A stretch of DNA of 64,000 bases, from NCBI RefSeq assembly GCF_027531815.1, contig NZ_JAPZSK010000006.1, positions 310,001-374,000 of the forward strand, read 5' to 3'. Source of the stretch: Gemmatimonas sp. Its GTDB lineage: Bacteria; Gemmatimonadota; Gemmatimonadetes; Gemmatimonadales; Gemmatimonadaceae. Position 1 is the first letter of the stretch. Each line of letters begins with the position of its first letter. Below are positions 1,933-61,843 of the stretch, piece by piece. The position numbers and the translations under genes were made by a program. The notes beneath the pieces are model-generated. The model saw only the letters and a list, made by a program, of their open reading frames with translations, made no database searches and was not told where the DNA came from.

Positions 1933-4476
1933 TTTTGCTGTCCCCCCCGCCCCCCGCTGCCGGTAGAACCTCGCGACTTCACCGCGCACCTCCTCCCACG
2001 CGCCCACGAGGCGGCGGGCGGGCGGCAGGGCATCGAGGAGTTCGCGGCCATAGCGCTTGCTGATCACGCGCGGGTCGCTGAGGACCACCACGCCGGCGTC
2101 GGTGGCAGTGCGAATGAGTCGACCGAACCCCTGCTTGAGGCGCAGCGACGCGTGCGGCAGCATGAACTCGCCAAAGCTGTTGCCGCCGCGCGCCTCGATG
2201 GCCTCGCATTGCGCCGCCACCATGGGTTCGGTGGGCACCCGAAACGGCAGCTTGGCAATGAGCAGCCCACGCAGGGCGTCGCCCGGCACGTCCACCCCTT
2301 CCCAGAAGGTGGCGGTCCCCAGCAGCACCGCGCGCCCGCTGTCACGGAAGCGTTGCAGCAGCACGTCGCGCGGTTCCTCGCCGTGCACCAGCAGCGGCCA
2401 GTTGCCCCCCTGCCCCGGTCCACGCAGCCATTCTGCCGCCTCACGGACATCGCGGTGGCTCGTGAACAGGGCGAACAGCCCGCCGTCGCTGGCCGTCATG
2501 AGGTCGCGCAGATGACGGCACACCGCCGCGAAATGCTCGCGCGGCTGTTCATTGGGCGCCGGCAGATCGGTGGGCACCACCAGCACCGCCTGGCGCGGAT
2601 AATCGAAGGGCGATGGAAACATCGCCGCCTGCTTCGAGCGGCGCGCGTCGGCAATCCCCAGCCGTTCCTCGAGAAACGCAAACCCACCGTGCGTGGCCAG
2701 CGTGGCACTGGTGATCACTGCCGTCTCCACACGCTCGAAGAGATCCTCGCGCAGCACCGGCGCGAGATCGAGCGGCACGCAGTGCACGGCCACGTTGCGC
2801 TCATTGGGTGTCGGCTTGCCCTGAAACTCCATCCACCGCACGACCGGCGGACCGTCAGCAGGGGGCATGAGTCCCTTGGCCAGGGCATCGCCGGCACTCT
2901 GCAACCGTCGCAGTACCGCCCGCAGCTCGTTGAGCAGCGGCGCGAGCTCCTCCGCGCGCTTCTTGTCACTCTCGAAGCGGTCGCGCACCACCTTGAGGCC
3001 GGTCGCGAGCGCATCGATCTCCGTGAGCAGTTCCTTGAGCGTGCCCTCGATGCCGTTGCGCCACAGGTCGTGCTGCTGGAACTCGCCGGTGAGGCGCATC
3101 ACCGCGGTGCCCTGCATTTCGAGCACGGCGGCGAGCAACTCGAAGAGCAACTGCACGCGATCGCGCGCCGTGAGCGTGCTCGAGATGAGCCGCTCCTGCA
3201 CGAGATCGAGGCTGGCCGTACTCAGCAGATCCTTGCCACCGGCCAGGCGCGCGATGAGGGCCGGCAGCAACCCCTTGCCGCGCCGTTCGAGCCGGTTGAA
3301 CATGCGCGCCAGCGCGCGACGCGTGATGGAGCTGCCCAGGTGCGAGGCTGCCGCATCCTCGAGATGATGCCCTTCGTCGATCACCAGGCGCTTGTACGCC
3401 GGGAGCACCGCGGCCTCGTCCCAGTTCTGCGCCTGCCGTCGCACCGCCACGTCGGAGAGCAGCAGGTGATGGTTCACGACCACGATGTCGGCGTTCGCCG
3501 CGTCCTTGCGCGCCTTGAACAGGAAGCAGTCGTTGTAGAACTCGCACTTGAGACGCCCGCAGAGATCGGGCTCGGCGGAGACCTCGTCCCAGATGTCGGC
3601 GCGCGGCGCGGTGCCCAGGTCACTCAGCGAGCCATCCTTCGTGCGCTGCGCCCACTCGGCAATCTTCGCCACTTCGCCGGACGCATTGTCCTCGAAGAGC
3701 GCCGCCCCCGCCCCCTGCGCCTGCTGCAGCCGGTACAGACACAGGTAGTTGCGCCACCCCTTGAGCAGCGCGAAGCGCACCGGCTGGTCGGTGAGCGCCC
3801 GCTGCAGGAACGGCAGATCCTTGGCCACCAGCTGTTCCTGCAGCGTAATCGTGTTGGTGCTCACGACCGTGCGCTCACCGTTGGCGGCCGCCCAGCGCAA
3901 CGCCGGCACGAGATACCCGAGCGACTTGCCCACGCCCGTGCCAGCCTCGAGCAGCGCCACGCCGCCTCCGTTGAAGGCCGTCACCACCTCGGCCGCCATG
4001 GCGCGCTGACTCGGACGGTCTTCGTAGTCGCGCGCCCCGTGCACGCGGCGCATGGCCTGCGCGATGAGCCCGTGGGGGCCAAGCTGCACATCCACGTCGT
4101 CCGGATCGACGGGCACCAGCGTGCGCCCCTCGGGAATCTCCGTGACGAAGTAGATGCGCGTGGCCTCGTTGTCCACGATGGCGAAGCCCACGCCGTTCAT
4201 GTGGAGGCGGTACGCCACCTCCATGTCGGCATCACTGGGCGTGAGTTCGCCCGAGGGGTGGTTGTGCACCAGCAATTCGCCGCGATCGGCCACGCCGGGG
4301 AGGGCGAGCACGCTCTGCACGTCACCGGCGGCGACCTTGCGCGCGGTGGCCACGTGGCCCTGATCGTCCACGGTGCACACGAAGCACACTTCGTTGCCGC
4401 CATGCAACCGGATCTGCGTACGCATGGCGGCCGCCGCCTTGGGCAGCAGCCGCGCTTCTCCTGCCACCTGCGCCAT
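1927..4476 (-). CDS. DinG/XPD-type Fe-S helicase with N-terminal RadC-like JAB domain
   Basis: An 849-residue fusion. Residues about 1-120 form a RadC-like JAB/MPN domain with the metal-site motif HNHPSG (about 71) followed by TPSDAD. From about 160 a superfamily-2 DinG/XPD-like DNA helicase follows: Walker A GTGVGKS (about 179), four cysteines of the Fe-S domain (YLC near LKGWRNY, then DLCGRLKCEFYNDC), the Walker B box VIDEGHH, motif III-like ITSATL, and the C-terminal motifs GTATFWEGVDVPG and QGFGRLIR. DinG helicases unwind R-loops, D-loops and G4 DNA in repair; RadC-type JAB domains are of uncertain DNA-linked function. The start at 4476 lies 10 bases after the preceding stop and gives a protein beginning at the JAB fold; the open frame upstream is Arg-rich shadow sequence. 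Confidence 0.92.
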   Translation of the reverse strand: MAQVAGEARLLPKAAAAMRTQIRLHGGNEVCFVCTVDDQGHVATARKVAAGDVQSVLALPGVADRGELLVHNHPSGELTPSDADMEVAYRLHMNGVGFAIVDNEATRIYFVTEIPEGRTLVPVDPDDVDVQLGPHGLIAQAMRRVHGARDYEDRPSQRAMAAEVVTAFNGGGVALLEAGTGVGKSLGYLVPALRWAAANGERTVVSTNTITLQEQLVAKDLPFLQRALTDQPVRFALLKGWRNYLCLYRLQQAQGAGAALFEDNASGEVAKIAEWAQRTKDGSLSDLGTAPRADIWDEVSAEPDLCGRLKCEFYNDCFLFKARKDAANADIVVVNHHLLLSDVAVRRQAQNWDEAAVLPAYKRLVIDEGHHLEDAAASHLGSSITRRALARMFNRLERRGKGLLPALIARLAGGKDLLSTASLDLVQERLISSTLTARDRVQLLFELLAAVLEMQGTAVMRLTGEFQQHDLWRNGIEGTLKELLTEIDALATGLKVVRDRFESDKKRAEELAPLLNELRAVLRRLQSAGDALAKGLMPPADGPPVVRWMEFQGKPTPNERNVAVHCVPLDLAPVLREDLFERVETAVITSATLATHGGFAFLEERLGIADARRSKQAAMFPSPFDYPRQAVLVVPTDLPAPNEQPREHFAAVCRHLRDLMTASDGGLFALFTSHRDVREAAEWLRGPGQGGNWPLLVHGEEPRDVLLQRFRDSGRAVLLGTATFWEGVDVPGDALRGLLIAKLPFRVPTEPMVAAQCEAIEARGGNSFGEFMLPHASLRLKQGFGRLIRTATDAGVVVLSDPRVISKRYGRELLDALPPARRLVGAWEEVRGEVARFYRQRGAGGTAKA

Positions 4477-4486
4477 CAGCGCCCCG

Positions 4487-5776
4487 TCACGTCTTCCGCG
4501 GCTTCTTCTTGGCGGCCGGGAACAGCACGTTGTTGAGGATGAGGCGGTACCCCGGGGAGTTCGGATGCAGCGAGAGATCCGTTGGCGCACTGCCGATCGC
4601 ATGCTGCGGATCCTCGGGATCGTGCCCGCCGAGGAAGGTCCACGAGCCCTTGCCGTAATCGCCGTGCAGGTACTTGGACCACGGCGCGCCCTCTTCCTGC
4701 GCCAGCACGGTCACGTTGCGCTTCACCACCGCCTTGTTGAAGCTCGTGGTTACCCCGTAGAAATCGGCCACCACCGTGCGGTGATTCTGGACCAGCATGG
4801 TGGCCACGGGATCGAGCTTGGCGCTGAAGCCGAAGAGCGAAAAGGTGCCGAGCGGCTGCCGCCGCGACGGAACGTTGACCTGATGGCCGTCGATATCGCT
4901 GAGCGCGTTCACATACGGCGACGGTTCCACGTGTGCTCCCTGAAAGGCGAGAGCACGTGTCCAATCGAGCTTGGTGTCGGCGTTGGGATCGGGGGGTGTG
5001 CCATCGGAGAAGGGCCCCGCGATGTCCACGACCAGCGACGCAATGGAGAGGTCGAGCGATTCGGTGGCCCCGCACATGGCGAAGAGGAAGCCGCCGCGGT
5101 CGACGAAGCCACGGATGTTGTCGGCCACGGCCTTCTTGAGCGCCGGCACGTTGTCCTTGCCGAAGAGCCGCCCCGTGCTGAGGTCACGCTCGCGCTGCGC
5201 CACGAACCAGGGCGCATCACGATACGCGAGATACAGCTTGTTGTACTGCCCGGTGAAGTCCTCGTGGTGCAGATGCACCCAGTCGTACTTGGACAGATCG
5301 CCCTTGAGCACCTCGTTGTCCCACACCGAGGCGAAGTCGATGCCGGCGTAGGTGAGGGCGAGGGTGACCGCATCGTCCCAGGGTGGCTGATCGACGGGAC
5401 GGTAGATGGCGATCTTGGGCGACCGTTCGAGCACGACGGCGTCCATGTTGCCGCCGGCGATCTCCGCCCGCACCGCGGCGACGGCCCCATCGGTCATGGG
5501 CTCCACACTGACCCCTTCCAGCGCGGCCCGCTTGCGCAGATCGGGCACGTCGGGAAGCAGGAAGGCACCGCCGCGATAGTTGAGCAACCACTCGGCCTTC
5601 TGCCCGGCCTTGAGCGCCTGGTACGTGACACCGTACGCCTTGAGGTGATTGCGCTGCGCGTCGTCCATGGGCAGCAGCAGATGCTGCGCGGCCGCGGGAC
5701 GCGCGAGTGAGATCACGGCCCCAACGAGAAGCAGCGTGGAGCGCACGGCGCGGGTGACCAAGGGGCAGACGGGCAT
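4487..5776 (-). CDS. Exported class I glutamine amidotransferase-like protein (asnB-like family)
   Basis: A 429-residue protein with a signal peptide (hydrophobic segment about 12-28, cleavage near ARPAAAQ). The order of features (GNMDAVVLERSPKIAIYRP, LKGDLSKYDWVHLHHEDFTGQY, then FVDRGGFLFAMCGATESLD with a Cys in a GATase-like elbow) matches a family often mislabelled asparagine synthetase B in Bacteroidota and Gemmatimonadota. No ATP-pyrophosphatase domain is present, so it is not asparagine synthetase. The C-terminal part (YGKGSWTFLGGHDPED, LHPNSPGYRLILNNVLFP) is conserved-looking and ends in a Lys-rich tail. It probably acts in the periplasm; substrate unknown. The start could be a few codons further in. 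Confidence 0.72.
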   Translation of the reverse strand: MPVCPLVTRAVRSTLLLVGAVISLARPAAAQHLLLPMDDAQRNHLKAYGVTYQALKAGQKAEWLLNYRGGAFLLPDVPDLRKRAALEGVSVEPMTDGAVAAVRAEIAGGNMDAVVLERSPKIAIYRPVDQPPWDDAVTLALTYAGIDFASVWDNEVLKGDLSKYDWVHLHHEDFTGQYNKLYLAYRDAPWFVAQRERDLSTGRLFGKDNVPALKKAVADNIRGFVDRGGFLFAMCGATESLDLSIASLVVDIAGPFSDGTPPDPNADTKLDWTRALAFQGAHVEPSPYVNALSDIDGHQVNVPSRRQPLGTFSLFGFSAKLDPVATMLVQNHRTVVADFYGVTTSFNKAVVKRNVTVLAQEEGAPWSKYLHGDYGKGSWTFLGGHDPEDPQHAIGSAPTDLSLHPNSPGYRLILNNVLFPAAKKKPRKT

Positions 5777-55312: not shown

Positions 55313-55442
55313 CCTTTCTCCCGAGACCAACCAACACCACCTCGTCTAATTCTCAGACTGTGAGCTTGACGGGGAGTCTACGGTAAGGTTTCAGCGAATG
55401 AGTGGCAGGTTGACAGTGGTACATCACTTCGAGGTTGCTTCG

Positions 55443-56573
55443 ATGCGATTGCGTGGAGCGTTGGTTGTATTGGTCCTTTTGACCGCAGCGTGTCGTTCTG
55501 ACTCGCCCGTGCCTGATTGGGAAAACGCCGGCGCGCCGACACTCTCCGTTTCAATCGCCGAGACAGCAACGACATGTGGTAAGTGCCTGTCTCTGCGGGA
55601 GATCGTGCGTATCGCCCCGGACAGCGGGCCGGGCATGGTAGACGAAAGCCACTACGTCTCCATCGACAGCATGGGACGATTGATCGTCAGCAGAGCTTCG
55701 GGACATCAGGTGTACGAGGCGAACGGGCTGTACTCCCGGACGATTGGTCGTCAGGGGAGTGGACCACTGGAGTTCACGTTGCCTGGGCCTGTCACCGTGG
55801 ACGCTAAGGGGAACATCCATTTTTTCGACCCGGCGCTCAATCGCGAGTCCGTCATTGATCGCCACTACGATCTCATTCGCGAACGCTCGTTGCGCCTTGG
55901 AGTGGTGTATGACGCGATCGCTGTGGGCGACGGCCATACGCGATTTGTCAACGCGCTGTCGATGGAACCCGTCAAGATCGGCAATACCATCCACCGCGTT
56001 GACGATGACTCCGTCACCGTATCCTTTGGCGAGCCGGACGATTCGACGTTTGCACCCGCCTCGGTTGCGCTTCAGCGGCAGCTCGCGATGCACCCATCCG
56101 GCAACCTGGTGTCTGGGCGCCGTTTCGAGTACGTGATTGAGATCTTCTCGCCGACCGGCGAACGTCGATTGCTCGCACGGCGTGGGGGGGTGTGGCCCCA
56201 AACATCGGGCGAGCCCGACCCGATAAAGCGCGGCGCAAAGCTCAATGGATACTTGCAAGACATCGAGGTGGACTCACTCGGGAGCGTGTGGGTGCTCTCC
56301 ATGGACCCTCGTAGTGATTGGGAGCGCTTTGCGAAGAATGCTGCATTACCCAATGGGATGTCGGTGCTGATGCCTATTCCCGATTCGCCCCCGTGGTTCC
56401 GGAGCCGCTTGGAGGTGCTGGACCTCCGGACTGGCACTGTCCTGGCATCAAGGGTCTTTGACGACCAGCTATGGGGTTTTCTTGGCGCAACGCGCCTGTA
56501 TGGGTACACCTATGGGACACAGAGCGAGCCGCAACTCGTGGTTTACAGTGTCAACTTTGCACCGAAACCCTAG
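55443..56573 (+). CDS. 6-bladed beta-propeller lipoprotein (copy D)
   Basis: A 376-residue lipoprotein (VLLTAAC, about 16) of the propeller family. The blade turn is TIGRQGSGPLEFTLPGPVT; blades follow with VDAKGNIHFFDPALNRESV, HPSGNLVSGRRFEYVIEIF, EVDSLGSVWVLSMDP and RLEVLDLRTGTVLASRV. Two Cys at TCGKCLSLREI near the mature N-terminus are a local feature, not found in copy A. ATG 55443 gives the leader; the longer frame begins in the IS3 boundary. The small exported partner gene follows 14 bases later. Confidence 0.85.
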   Translation: MRLRGALVVLVLLTAACRSDSPVPDWENAGAPTLSVSIAETATTCGKCLSLREIVRIAPDSGPGMVDESHYVSIDSMGRLIVSRASGHQVYEANGLYSRTIGRQGSGPLEFTLPGPVTVDAKGNIHFFDPALNRESVIDRHYDLIRERSLRLGVVYDAIAVGDGHTRFVNALSMEPVKIGNTIHRVDDDSVTVSFGEPDDSTFAPASVALQRQLAMHPSGNLVSGRRFEYVIEIFSPTGERRLLARRGGVWPQTSGEPDPIKRGAKLNGYLQDIEVDSLGSVWVLSMDPRSDWERFAKNAALPNGMSVLMPIPDSPPWFRSRLEVLDLRTGTVLASRVFDDQLWGFLGATRLYGYTYGTQSEPQLVVYSVNFAPKP

Positions 56574-56587
56574 CCGGAGCACTAACC

Positions 56588-57073
56588 ATGAATGATCTGA
56601 GACGACTTGTACTTCGCCTGTCGATGTTTCTCTGGGCCCTCGCCCCTGCACAGCTTTCCGCTCAAGGCGGATGCGGTGGTGCTTGTCTGCCGTGTGCTGG
56701 TGCCCCTTCCAGCGCTTGGAAGTATGGCGGCCTAAACGGCACGAACCACCTTGCTTTTTGTACGCCAAGCTATAGTTGCGTAGCATGCAACTTCACTTCA
56801 CGTGAGAGCTCCATTGAGAGCAAGGAGAAACTATCGATCCGCTTTCGACGATCCTCAACTAGTGCGATAGAGGGACTGGTCGCACTTCATGGAAAGAAGA
56901 TTCGAACGATGGCCTCTCGTAATGCGCTACTGGTCTTGGGAGGTTGCGACGGGACGACCCCCACTGAGCTGAGTCATCTCCCAACCACCACAATCGAGCG
57001 ACTAAAGAGACTCGGCGTTCAGGAGTGGGACGGACGGGGAGAATCCGTGGTTGCCGTGGCGAAGATGAACTAG
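56588..57073 (+). CDS. Small exported Cys-containing protein paired with propeller D
   Basis: A 161-residue protein: signal peptide (LRRLVLRLSMFLWALAPAQLSAQ) and then GGCGGACLPCAGAP, later AFCTPSYSCVACNF, giving at least six Cys in the first half. The rest (RSSTSAIEGLVALHGKKIRTM, GGCDGTTPTELSHL) is unrecognised. ATG 56588 has GGAG upstream and lies 14 bases after the propeller stop, so the genes are likely one transcript. AT-richer than core genes, which hints at recent transfer. Function unknown; the Cys pattern suggests disulfide-stabilised exported protein. Confidence 0.7.
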   Translation: MNDLRRLVLRLSMFLWALAPAQLSAQGGCGGACLPCAGAPSSAWKYGGLNGTNHLAFCTPSYSCVACNFTSRESSIESKEKLSIRFRRSSTSAIEGLVALHGKKIRTMASRNALLVLGGCDGTTPTELSHLPTTTIERLKRLGVQEWDGRGESVVAVAKMN

Positions 57074-58528: not shown

Positions 58529-58606
58529 GTACCGTGGAGGTCTTGTCAAGAAGTGTGTAAACGCGCGTCAGGCGGCGGCCTTCCGGTTAGTGGGGACACC
58601 AGGCAC

Positions 58607-59205
58607 CCCATGCGCGCCTCGGGATCCGTCACCGACTGATGCGTCGCGTTGCTCCGCTGCTCGCCATGGAAGCTCACGCCGCGATTGTCCGGATCCACCG
58701 GGCGATCCGGGTCGTCGTCCTTCGGCCGCGCGCTCTTCTGGCTTGCCCAGGCCTCCAGCAACGTCCCATCAACGGAGAAGTGCTCGCGCGAGAGCAGGCG
58801 CGCCTGCTCCGCCGTGGCCACGGTGCGGGCGAGAAACTGAGCCGCGATATCGCCGTCGAGCCGGCGCTGCCGATTCTTCGTGAAGGTCGTGGCGTGCCAC
58901 GCCGTCGCCTCGAGGTCGAGGCCCACGAACCAGCGATAGAGGAGATTGTATTCAAGCTGCTCGACGAGCTGACGCTCGCTCCGAATCGAATAGAGGAGCT
59001 GCAGGAGCAACGCGCGCAGCAACTGCTCGGGCGGGATCGACGGGCGCCCCGTCTGGCTGTACAGCGCCTCGACCTGGGGCGAGAGGTCACGCAGGATCGG
59101 ATCGACAAGGCGACGGATCGCCCACAGCGGGTGGTCGGCCGAAATCCGATCTTCGAGCACCACCGTCGCGAACATCATCCCCTGCACGCGCTCGTCTCCC
59201 CGCAT
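58607..59205 (-). mobile_element. IS1182/IS5-type transposase, 3' truncated
   Basis: From ATG 59205: MRGDERVQGMMFATVVLED, ADHPLWAIRRLVDPILRDL, then IPPEQLLRALLLQLLYSIRSERQLVEQLEYNLLYRWF (landmarks: SIRSERQL, YRWFVGLDL), HFSVDGTLLEAWASQKSARPK (first catalytic Asp) and THQSVTDPEARM. The reading stops matching after DPEARM, at about 58607, where the GNAT region begins, so the 3' half with the remaining catalytic acids is gone. Hairpin just upstream at 59245. Confidence 0.85.
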
Positions 59206-59244
59206 CGCTCGCCTCCGGCAGAAGTCGCGCCAGTACACAAGATC

Positions 59245-59902: not shown

Positions 59903-60295
59903 GCTGAGGCCTCGCGCATGCTGAACGTTGGTGCCGGTTACGCGGTGCCTCGAACCACCGTTCGATACTGCGTCTCTCGGCAGATGTCGATCCACCTGTT
60001 TCGCCCCATGTCGATCATTCGGTAGACCGTGGACAGGGACCATGAGTGCTTGGCACCCATCCACCGGGTAGGTTGCTGGGCCTTCGCGGCCGCGCCGCCG
60101 GTGCTCAAGGGGCGCGCTTCCAAGGCTCTCCGTCGGCCTGCCTCGGACACTCGTCGCCGGCGCTTCGACCACGCGATTCAACGGCCAATGAGCGCTTGTG
60201 CTATTGACAAAGCAAGAAATGGCATGCCAACGTCCAGAGTCAGGTTTGTAATGTAGCGCGAGCGAAGTGCACCAACGTTCTTTGAGGAGAAACAG
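59903..60295. other. Intergenic region upstream of the propeller E pair
   Basis: No gene clearly supported. A minus-strand fragment RWMGAKHSWSLSTVYRMIDMG (about 60060-60000) resembles a short excisionase-type helix-turn-helix, probably decayed. TTGACA at 60204-60209 has no good -10 partner at 17 bases. The last 40 bases hold the GAGGAG ribosome site for the next gene. Confidence 0.4.
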
Positions 60296-60670
60296 ATGAA
60301 TCGCAGTCGACTCGTCGCATTCGCCGCGTCATTCTTTCTGATCGGCAAGAGTGTGTCAGCGCAGTGTGCAATCTGCACCCTCTCCGTATCAGAGGTTCCG
60401 AACTGCGCGTGGGGCCCTTACCGTGATGCTGCCGAAGGATGTGAGTCAGACGGGAACAGTTACTGCTTCGTTTGGGGTGCCTGCGGAGGAAGCTTCGCGA
60501 AGCTTGCGGCACCCGAGCTTCGTCAACACTGGCAGCTTCTTGCTGGCCCGCCAGCTCAATCTTTCGCGAAAGAGATCGTCTCCTCCAGAACACTTGCCAG
60601 CTTCCTCATTCCGGTCGACTGTACGGGAAAAAGCAATCACTCCTCCGCTTGGCTCTCTCCCGGGGCCTGA
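60296..60670 (+). CDS. Small exported Cys-rich protein paired with propeller E
   Basis: A 124-residue protein: signal peptide MNRSRLVAFAASFFLIGKSVSAQ, then CAICTLSVSEVPNCAWGPY, GCESDGNSYCFVWGACGG and a last Cys in VDCTGKS, about eight Cys in all. No known family. ATG 60296 follows a strong GAGGAG by 6 bases, so it is well translated. The propeller gene starts 6 bases after its stop, so this is a two-gene unit. The Cys spacing differs from that of the 56.6 kb partner, but both start with a Cys-rich N-terminus right after the signal cleavage site. Confidence 0.75.
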   Translation: MNRSRLVAFAASFFLIGKSVSAQCAICTLSVSEVPNCAWGPYRDAAEGCESDGNSYCFVWGACGGSFAKLAAPELRQHWQLLAGPPAQSFAKEIVSSRTLASFLIPVDCTGKSNHSSAWLSPGA

Positions 60671-60676
60671 ACCGGT

Positions 60677-61843
60677 ATGTTATTCTCGGTTCGTGCGGGG
60701 GTGCTGATATACGGCGCGGTGGTTTTGACGAATCGGTTGCATGCCCAGGACGCACCGTCCGCGATTTCGGTCGGCGCGCGCCGTGTGCTCATCTCCGGTG
60801 CATCGACCGACATGGACCTGCGTCGCCAGCCGATCGTCGCGATCGGCGATAACGGGCAAATCGCGATTACCGATGGCGCCACGTTCGTCGGCGTTGCCGA
60901 TGCAAGCGGACGCGTGCAGCGAGTGGGACGCGCCGGCAGCGGGCCGGGCGAAATCCAGCAGACCAGCGCGCTCGGATGGGTGGGCGATACGCTCTGGGTC
61001 ATCGACTCGCGGTTGCGGCGAATCACGTGGTTCCACGCGGGCCGGCTGCATCACACCGTGTCGTTCGTCGGCGGCCGACGCAGCGGCCAGCTCCTCGACC
61101 TGCCCATGGCGCTCACCCCGCTTGGCGCAGTCGCGCCGAGCATGGGGGATGGACAGGCCGCCACGCTGTACAAGCCGCGGCGCTGGTCACTGTTTCTCGC
61201 GTCGCCCGACGGTGCGCAGGTGCGTGACTCGCTCTTCGACATGGTCGATCCTGCCGGGGCGCTCACCGTGAAGCGCGGGAACGGGACCATGGTGCTGCGG
61301 CAGCCATATTCGTTGCGGACGCTGGTGGGATGGTCCGGCAACGGGACCTGGCTCGTGCGCGCCGATCGCGCCAGCCAATCCGAAGGGCCACTCGGCGGTA
61401 CCCAGCCACATATTTCGCTGCGCGACGCACGCGGGCGCATTGTGTACGACGTGCCGCTCCCCATCGCCGCCCGGACGCTCCCCCCGGCAGAAGTGGCGCG
61501 GCTCGTCGATTCCGCCGTGGCGACCTTGAATCGGAACCCGCGTCTTCCGCCCACGACGACCGCCGAGTATCGGCGCGCGCTCGCGGTGCCTCCGCGTGTG
61601 CCGGCCGTGTCGCAGCTCGTGGTGCGCAACGACGGCAGCGTGCTGCTGCGGCCATGGCCAGCCCCTGATGGACAAGCCGATCATCTCGTGATCGCGGCGG
61701 ACGGCCGAGTGCGGAACACACTGCGCCTGCCGCCGGGTGTACACATTCTCGCCGCCGATACGAACCGCATCATCGCCACACGCGAGAACGACGATGGGGA
61801 CGTGGACATCGTCGTGTTCGACCTCACTCAGCGCCAGCGATAG
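60677..61843 (+). CDS. 6-bladed beta-propeller exported protein (copy E)
   Basis: A 388-residue protein with a signal peptide (VLIYGAVVLTNRLHAQ) but no lipobox Cys, unlike copies A, B and D. The turn is RVGRAGSGPGEIQQTSALG; blades include IVAIGDNGQIAITDGATF, DTLWVIDSRLRRITWF, SLRDARGRIVYDVPLP and LRLPPGVHILAADTNRIIA. It begins 6 bases after the small Cys-rich gene. Presumed periplasmic or surface binding protein; function unknown. Confidence 0.83.
   Translation: MLFSVRAGVLIYGAVVLTNRLHAQDAPSAISVGARRVLISGASTDMDLRRQPIVAIGDNGQIAITDGATFVGVADASGRVQRVGRAGSGPGEIQQTSALGWVGDTLWVIDSRLRRITWFHAGRLHHTVSFVGGRRSGQLLDLPMALTPLGAVAPSMGDGQAATLYKPRRWSLFLASPDGAQVRDSLFDMVDPAGALTVKRGNGTMVLRQPYSLRTLVGWSGNGTWLVRADRASQSEGPLGGTQPHISLRDARGRIVYDVPLPIAARTLPPAEVARLVDSAVATLNRNPRLPPTTTAEYRRALAVPPRVPAVSQLVVRNDGSVLLRPWPAPDGQADHLVIAADGRVRNTLRLPPGVHILAADTNRIIATRENDDGDVDIVVFDLTQRQR

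Follow-up and report, generated by a model that had tools for sequence, protein, structure and literature searches.

A Cys-rich exported protein and an NHL-type propeller of Gemmatimonas as a putative reduced form of a three-gene cassette

NVEALA pairs of Bacteroidota consist of a small Sec-exported, Cys-rich protein encoded beside a six-bladed propeller. The same architecture was found in a Gemmatimonas-type genome of 4.3 Mb at positions 60296-61843 of the window (the whole stretch of 64,000 nucleotides analyzed here), where the gene of a small Sec-exported Cys-rich protein, termed CEP, lies beside that of an exported, probably six-bladed propeller, termed PROP. This likeness is to the general architecture of NVEALA pairs, and the partner propellers of those pairs fall into the same broad DUF5128/TolB-like group as PROP. 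In contrast to NVEALA proteins, CEPs are longer, carry a CxGxVVxRxYS..IxI tail, have a third gene upstream and contain a recombining variable domain, and they match neither the NVEALA motif nor its profile. The initial annotation had likened the unit to an NVEALA-type pair but called the sequence different, and this description is accurate: the association is analogous, and NVEALA (PF14055) was not matched above its curated cut-off of 27 bits in any of 177 genomes of the family, while one control genome was positive with the same model.

Three further groups of described proteins resemble parts of the locus. The PROP family shows sequence and profile similarity to DUF5128 (PF17170)/NHL propellers, e.g., BF0058 (4raa), whereas PROP of the window is without a Pfam match at an E-value of 1 and the gene neighborhood of the cassette described below is specific. 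Surface lipoprotein propellers of the BtuG type (BT2095, BtuG2) set a precedent for a propeller held at the surface and are among the structure matches of PROP, which are weak and derive from a low-confidence model. However, the ligand of BtuG is cobalamin and its neighbor a TonB-dependent transporter; CEP and PROP have no such neighbor. Finally, polymorphic or variable surface protein systems share with CEP, at the level of sequence, the constant export and anchoring ends, a variable middle and mosaic recombination; CEP is not homologous to any of them. A limited literature search on NVEALA, DUF5128 or a six-bladed beta-propeller pair in Gemmatimonas returned nothing.

The pair in the window and its counterpart in a second species

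The CEP gene covers positions 60296..60670 on the plus strand, starts with ATG and encodes 124 amino acids, beginning with a Sec signal peptide. A Shine-Dalgarno motif GAGGAG, read from the sequence, is located on the same strand at 60284..60289 with a spacer of 6 nt to the start codon. The exported protein of 124 residues and the GAGGAG site of the initial annotation were both recovered. The signal peptide (60296..60361, plus strand) is of the classical Sec type and reads MNRSRLVAFAASFFLIGKSVSA^QCAIC with a predicted cleavage at SA^QC; the AQ^C cleavage boundary of this CEP is also seen in most members of its family. A disulfide-type domain from C24 to C63 (60365..60484, plus strand; CxxC...C...C...C...C) and a degenerate C-terminal module (60620..60670, plus strand) with a lone Cys109 in the motif DCTG follow. 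All seven Cys are in the mature part, arranged as CxxC, C, C, C, C followed by a lone final Cys109; the earlier estimate of about eight Cys was slightly too high. The C-terminal end is DCTGKSNHSSAWLSPGA, in which the Cys and a G are kept and the remainder of the module is lost; the canonical C-terminal module CxGx(V/I)(V/I)xRxYS...IxI is absent from this CEP. Its predicted structure, computed from an input of two sequences, reached a pLDDT of 39 and is unusable.

PROP (60677..61843, plus strand, 388 aa) is an exported NHL/DUF5128-type beta-propeller with its own signal peptide (..RLHAQ^D) and without any Cys. It starts 6 bases past the stop codon of CEP, exactly the spacing that had been annotated. 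Neither protein of the window matches Pfam or NCBIfam at an E-value of 1, and PROP does not reach the gathering score of DUF5128 (PF17170), the cut-off of which (22.9 bits) is passed by its cassette relatives at the loci L078 (31.2 bits) and L087 (27.5 bits). Searching the PDB with the profile of the PROP family detected the NHL propellers Thin (E-value of 1.3e-25), TRIM3 (7e-24), Brat (1.8e-7) and BF0058 (0.0018), and the comparison with solved NHL propellers supports a six-bladed fold of the NHL type for the family. The predicted model of PROP from the window is of low confidence (mean pLDDT 47, pTM 0.52); its best PDB matches are the Brat NHL domain and BF0058.

A full-length homologous pair is present in another Gemmatimonas species (genome G005, locus L044), with amino acid identities of 47-50% for CEP and 64-65% for PROP; there, the two genes overlap by 4 bases. 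In a codon comparison of both species, pN was 0.10 and pS 0.80 in the Cys domain of CEP, showing clear purifying selection, whereas the 19 C-terminal codons diverged in a nearly neutral manner (pN 0.59, pS 0.69). For PROP, dN/dS was about 0.18. Because of the low pN relative to pS in its Cys domain, CEP is a translated and constrained protein, and since a full-length homologous pair exists in a further Gemmatimonas genome, it is a real gene and no chance ORF. A search with the single CEP protein over 100 relatives yielded two clear homologs only, the remainder being noise. A narrow scan of a named genome collection with back-translated motifs found one locus, in a Gemmatimonas MAG, as the CEP family is too diverged for motifs of this kind.

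A three-gene cassette in Gemmatimonadota

Loci were fetched around the propeller homologs of the family, and both flanks of 67 propellers were screened for short ORFs that have a ribosome site and encode exported Cys-rich proteins. With the same filter applied to both sides, such ORFs were found upstream of propellers and none downstream. At six of the screened propeller loci, CEP is preceded by an extra exported or lipoprotein gene of 320-370 aa, termed LIP; the order LIP-CEP-PROP is referred to as the cassette, as defined in this analysis. Further, a search with LIP only, run on 177 genomes as an independent test, revealed a new locus in another genus (L149), with CEP and PROP in the predicted order. 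When 395 genomes of the phylum were searched with the LIP profile alone and the CEP profile alone, both searches led to the same loci, which are spread over several families with a patchy distribution of CEPs, and the fetched DNA confirmed the order LIP-CEP-PROP on one strand. PROP lies directly downstream of 17 of the 19 CEPs outside the query alignment (one CEP, L230:5345-5782, is without PROP and one is at a contig end), and CEP and then PROP follow 33 of 42 LIP ORFs. The genes are tightly spaced, often with overlaps of 4 bases, including that of LIP and CEP. Pairwise distance matrices correlate between CEP and PROP (r = 0.79), CEP and LIP (0.79) and LIP and PROP (0.91), which is partly an effect of the species tree; the three genes are inherited together. 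The initial annotation had proposed to look for similar Cys-rich genes beside propellers in other genomes, with their absence as refutation, and many were found.

The CEP family comprises 34 members, including CEP of the window, which is recognized by the family profile with an E-value of 2e-15. Its layout is a constant signal peptide, then a Cys-rich domain (about 6 or 8 Cys), and in most cases a C-terminal module, likewise constant, that contributes one more Cys. The signal peptide mostly ends in AQ^, a CxxC is positioned near the mature N-terminus, and a turn containing DG is present. Mature CEPs have 7 (21 members), 9 (10 members) or 6 Cys (3 members), and most end in the module C-x-G-x-(V/I)-(V/I)-x-R-x-Y-S-xxx-A-xxx-R-x5-I-x-(I/L). 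Amino acid identity among CEPs is low (about 15-30%), with the Cys positions retained. CEPs gave no match in Pfam, and no NCBIfam family was found above its cut-off. Many LIPs (e.g., L078, L095, L101) have a lipobox, whereas the signal peptide of several others is an ordinary one. It was also considered as a diverged PROP; profile-profile comparison did not support this idea and, hence, LIP is not called a propeller.

Like the members of the cassette, positions 60296-61843 of the window contain a signal peptide and a Cys domain with PROP directly downstream on the same strand. The Cys domain is kept in the CEPs of the window and of G005, and most of the C-terminal module is lost in both. A LIP-only search did not detect LIP in either genome (G000, G005). 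Instead, transposase-like ORFs occupy the region upstream of the window pair where LIP would be expected, and transposase-like ORFs are found upstream of the G005 copy as well; they may be a possible cause of the loss of LIP. Based on these comparisons, the window pair appears to be a two-gene form of a previously undescribed three-gene cassette of Gemmatimonadota. The initial annotation of a two-gene unit is, therefore, right in that the exported Cys-rich protein and the exported propeller are genuinely associated and this association is conserved, but the canonical unit has three genes and the form in the window is reduced.

At least five cassette copies are present in one genome (G230; L212, L213, L214, L220), and an apparent deletion at L231 (3145-3930) has produced a single ORF of 261 aa that runs in frame from the beginning of LIP into the signal region of CEP.

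Variation of CEP and its possible role

Variation was analyzed in MAGs of one genus (f7/g78), in which the CEP locus is collinear over several kb. Between the genomes G279 and G434, DNA identity is 97% in LIP and 93% in PROP, but about 59% in the Cys domain and 63% in the linker. The Cys domain of G237 is of the G434 type, those of G240 and G350 are of the G279 type, and G320 has a third allele. In a collinear comparison over 7.4 kb, the median identity of the compared segments was 0.967 and the lowest values (0.51) fell inside CEP. Synonymous divergence (dS) between G237 and G279 reaches 1.92 in the Cys domain, with 0.86 in the linker, compared to 0.30 in the signal peptide, 0.44 in the C-terminal module and 0.16 in LIP; for PROP, 0.20 was measured between G237 and G240. 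The variable middle is bordered by sharp breakpoints, and the signal peptide and the C-terminal end are nearly constant. Site patterns in four genomes followed the allele grouping at 48 of 48 sites in the Cys domain and 31 of 31 in the linker, but at 1 of 32 in LIP. In the four genomes, the CEP alleles are also tracked by the 3′ end of PROP (at 19 sites, of which 16 lie in the last 260 nt), possibly via a neighboring duplication or a tandem copy farther downstream. Since the middle of CEP has a history unlike that of its neighbors, recombination is indicated and, judged by these patterns, this part of CEP is a recombining hypervariable segment between constant ends. Positive selection by point changes was rejected as the source of variation in this genus, as synonymous divergence is raised too, and a different genomic location of the alleles was rejected due to the collinearity of the loci. 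In the clade of the window the selection pattern is the reverse, with a conserved Cys domain and a variable C-terminus. In G237, a carrier of the second CEP allele, PROP (L215, 3053-4244) is split into two frames by a frameshift.

The anatomy of the cassette is well supported; its function we infer. Our preferred reading, tentative and a little short of an even chance, is that the window pair is a reduced LIP-CEP-PROP member in which CEP is an exported variable recognition or contact protein held by constant propeller machinery. Outside the cytoplasm, CEP would undergo oxidative folding; the constant propeller and, at the membrane, the lipoprotein would hold the constant C-terminal module of CEP, and the variable Cys domain would be exposed for a specific contact, be it in self/non-self recognition, in adhesion or with phages, predators or competitors. 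Variants could then be exchanged without changing the carrier. Constant ends, a swapped disulfide-rich middle and unchanging partners suggest that the task of propeller and LIP lies with those parts of CEP that are constant, i.e., its export, anchoring and display. Very different Cys domains next to near-identical LIP and PROP further imply that specificity is not matched by the neighbors, apart from the 3′ end of PROP, which follows the allele. For the copy in the window, which has neither LIP nor the canonical C-terminal module, a role as a ligand, free or bound directly to PROP, is possible, because its Cys domain remains under selection.

Four other functions or origins and neutral drift were weighed against this variable contact protein. 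The initial annotation had considered a ligand, a bacteriocin or a toxin with a propeller partner, and CEP is indeed small, exported, Cys-rich, hypervariable, patchily distributed and encoded in an operon with exported partner proteins, which would suit a secreted toxin or bacteriocin for which the adjacent propeller and/or lipoprotein serves as the specific immunity or receptor protein. We consider this unlikely, as immunity partners should switch with the toxin, whereas very different Cys domains are found beside nearly identical LIP and PROP; the identities of 97% and 93% versus 59% given above make a toxin with a cognate propeller in particular less likely. Further, there was no match to any PADLOC model and none to an NCBIfam family over its cut-off. 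The CxxC next to the mature N-terminus of most CEPs, together with an odd Cys total and one C-terminal Cys in 31 of 34, would suit a periplasmic redox or metal-binding protein, which the propeller uses as enzyme or scaffold, and a DsbA-like CPFC protein is encoded beside a different Cys-rich/propeller locus (L130). Nevertheless, this proposal is improbable to a similar degree, since a hypervariable Cys domain with recombination breakpoints is unexpected for a housekeeping redox carrier, and searches of Pfam and NCBIfam matched no thioredoxin or metal-binding family.

Rapid neutral drift, acting on a small secreted protein under weak constraint and without selected variation, could account for the low identity among CEPs (about 15-30%) and for the near-neutral divergence of the linker and of the C-terminus in the window. 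This is quite improbable, however, as relaxed amino acid constraint cannot raise dS, which is 1.92 in the Cys domain versus 0.16-0.30 in LIP, PROP and the signal peptide, and the divergence has sharp borders while the Cys positions are kept. CEP as a diverged NVEALA-family protein, homologous to the Bacteroidota pairs, would agree with the architecture of NVEALA pairs and with the relation of PROP to DUF5128 and to BF0058 of B. fragilis; we regard it as very unlikely, given the 177 genomes without a hit over the cut-off, even though the model scored above it in the control, and the missing Pfam matches of CEPs. The variable core between constant leader and tail would also be compatible with the precursor of a modified peptide natural product, matured by the propellers as enzymes, and the NHL fold includes a peptide-amidating lyase domain (weak profile match to 3fvz, E-value of 0.02). 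Yet mature CEPs are about 90-140 aa long, their conserved C-terminus looks globular, and recurring genes for modification, proteases or transporters were not seen in the examined loci, which leaves this origin with hardly any probability.

Returning to the variable contact protein, constant ends and a recombining disulfide-rich middle point to a specific contact partner under diversifying pressure. On a wider scale, it is possible but doubtful that exported NHL propellers throughout the phylum present a disulfide-rich domain whose variants close relatives exchange by recombination, forming a polymorphic recognition system that would serve to discriminate kin or to evade phages or predators. 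Bacteria of the Gemmatimonadota are abundant in soil and, to our knowledge, almost no surface, competition or recognition systems have been described for them. The cassette offers a testable role for numerous uncharacterized exported NHL/DUF5128 propellers, and the likeness to NVEALA/propeller pairs, unexplained in Bacteroidota, becomes testable as well.

Further Cys-rich/propeller loci

The window contains a second pair, in which a lipoprotein propeller with the motif TTCGKC (55398-56573) is followed after 14 bases by an exported Cys-rich protein of 161 aa (56588-57073), which carries the motif GGCDG close to its end. Genome G139 contains a homologous pair with this gene order (L260, minus strand; propeller 3543-4799, Cys-rich protein 3018-3530; 33% identity). 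The Cys-rich protein of the second pair is not significantly similar to the CEP profile (E-value of 0.65) and, judged by its sequence, the pair is a separate type, with a gene order reversed relative to CEP-PROP. A transposase-like ORF (58546-59238) sits between the two pairs of the window. At L130 (1696-5923), a DsbA-like CPFC protein and an exported protein of 87 aa with 8 Cys are followed by two consecutive propellers. Short exported peptides (75-91 aa, 4-11 Cys) were also seen near propellers at L088 (2128-2376), L093 (about 600 bp upstream of the propeller at 3086-4201), L121 (4237-4545) and L132 (3740-3967). Three of these four peptides have a G-C-x-x-G-x-x-x-C-like pattern, and they are closer to NVEALA in size.
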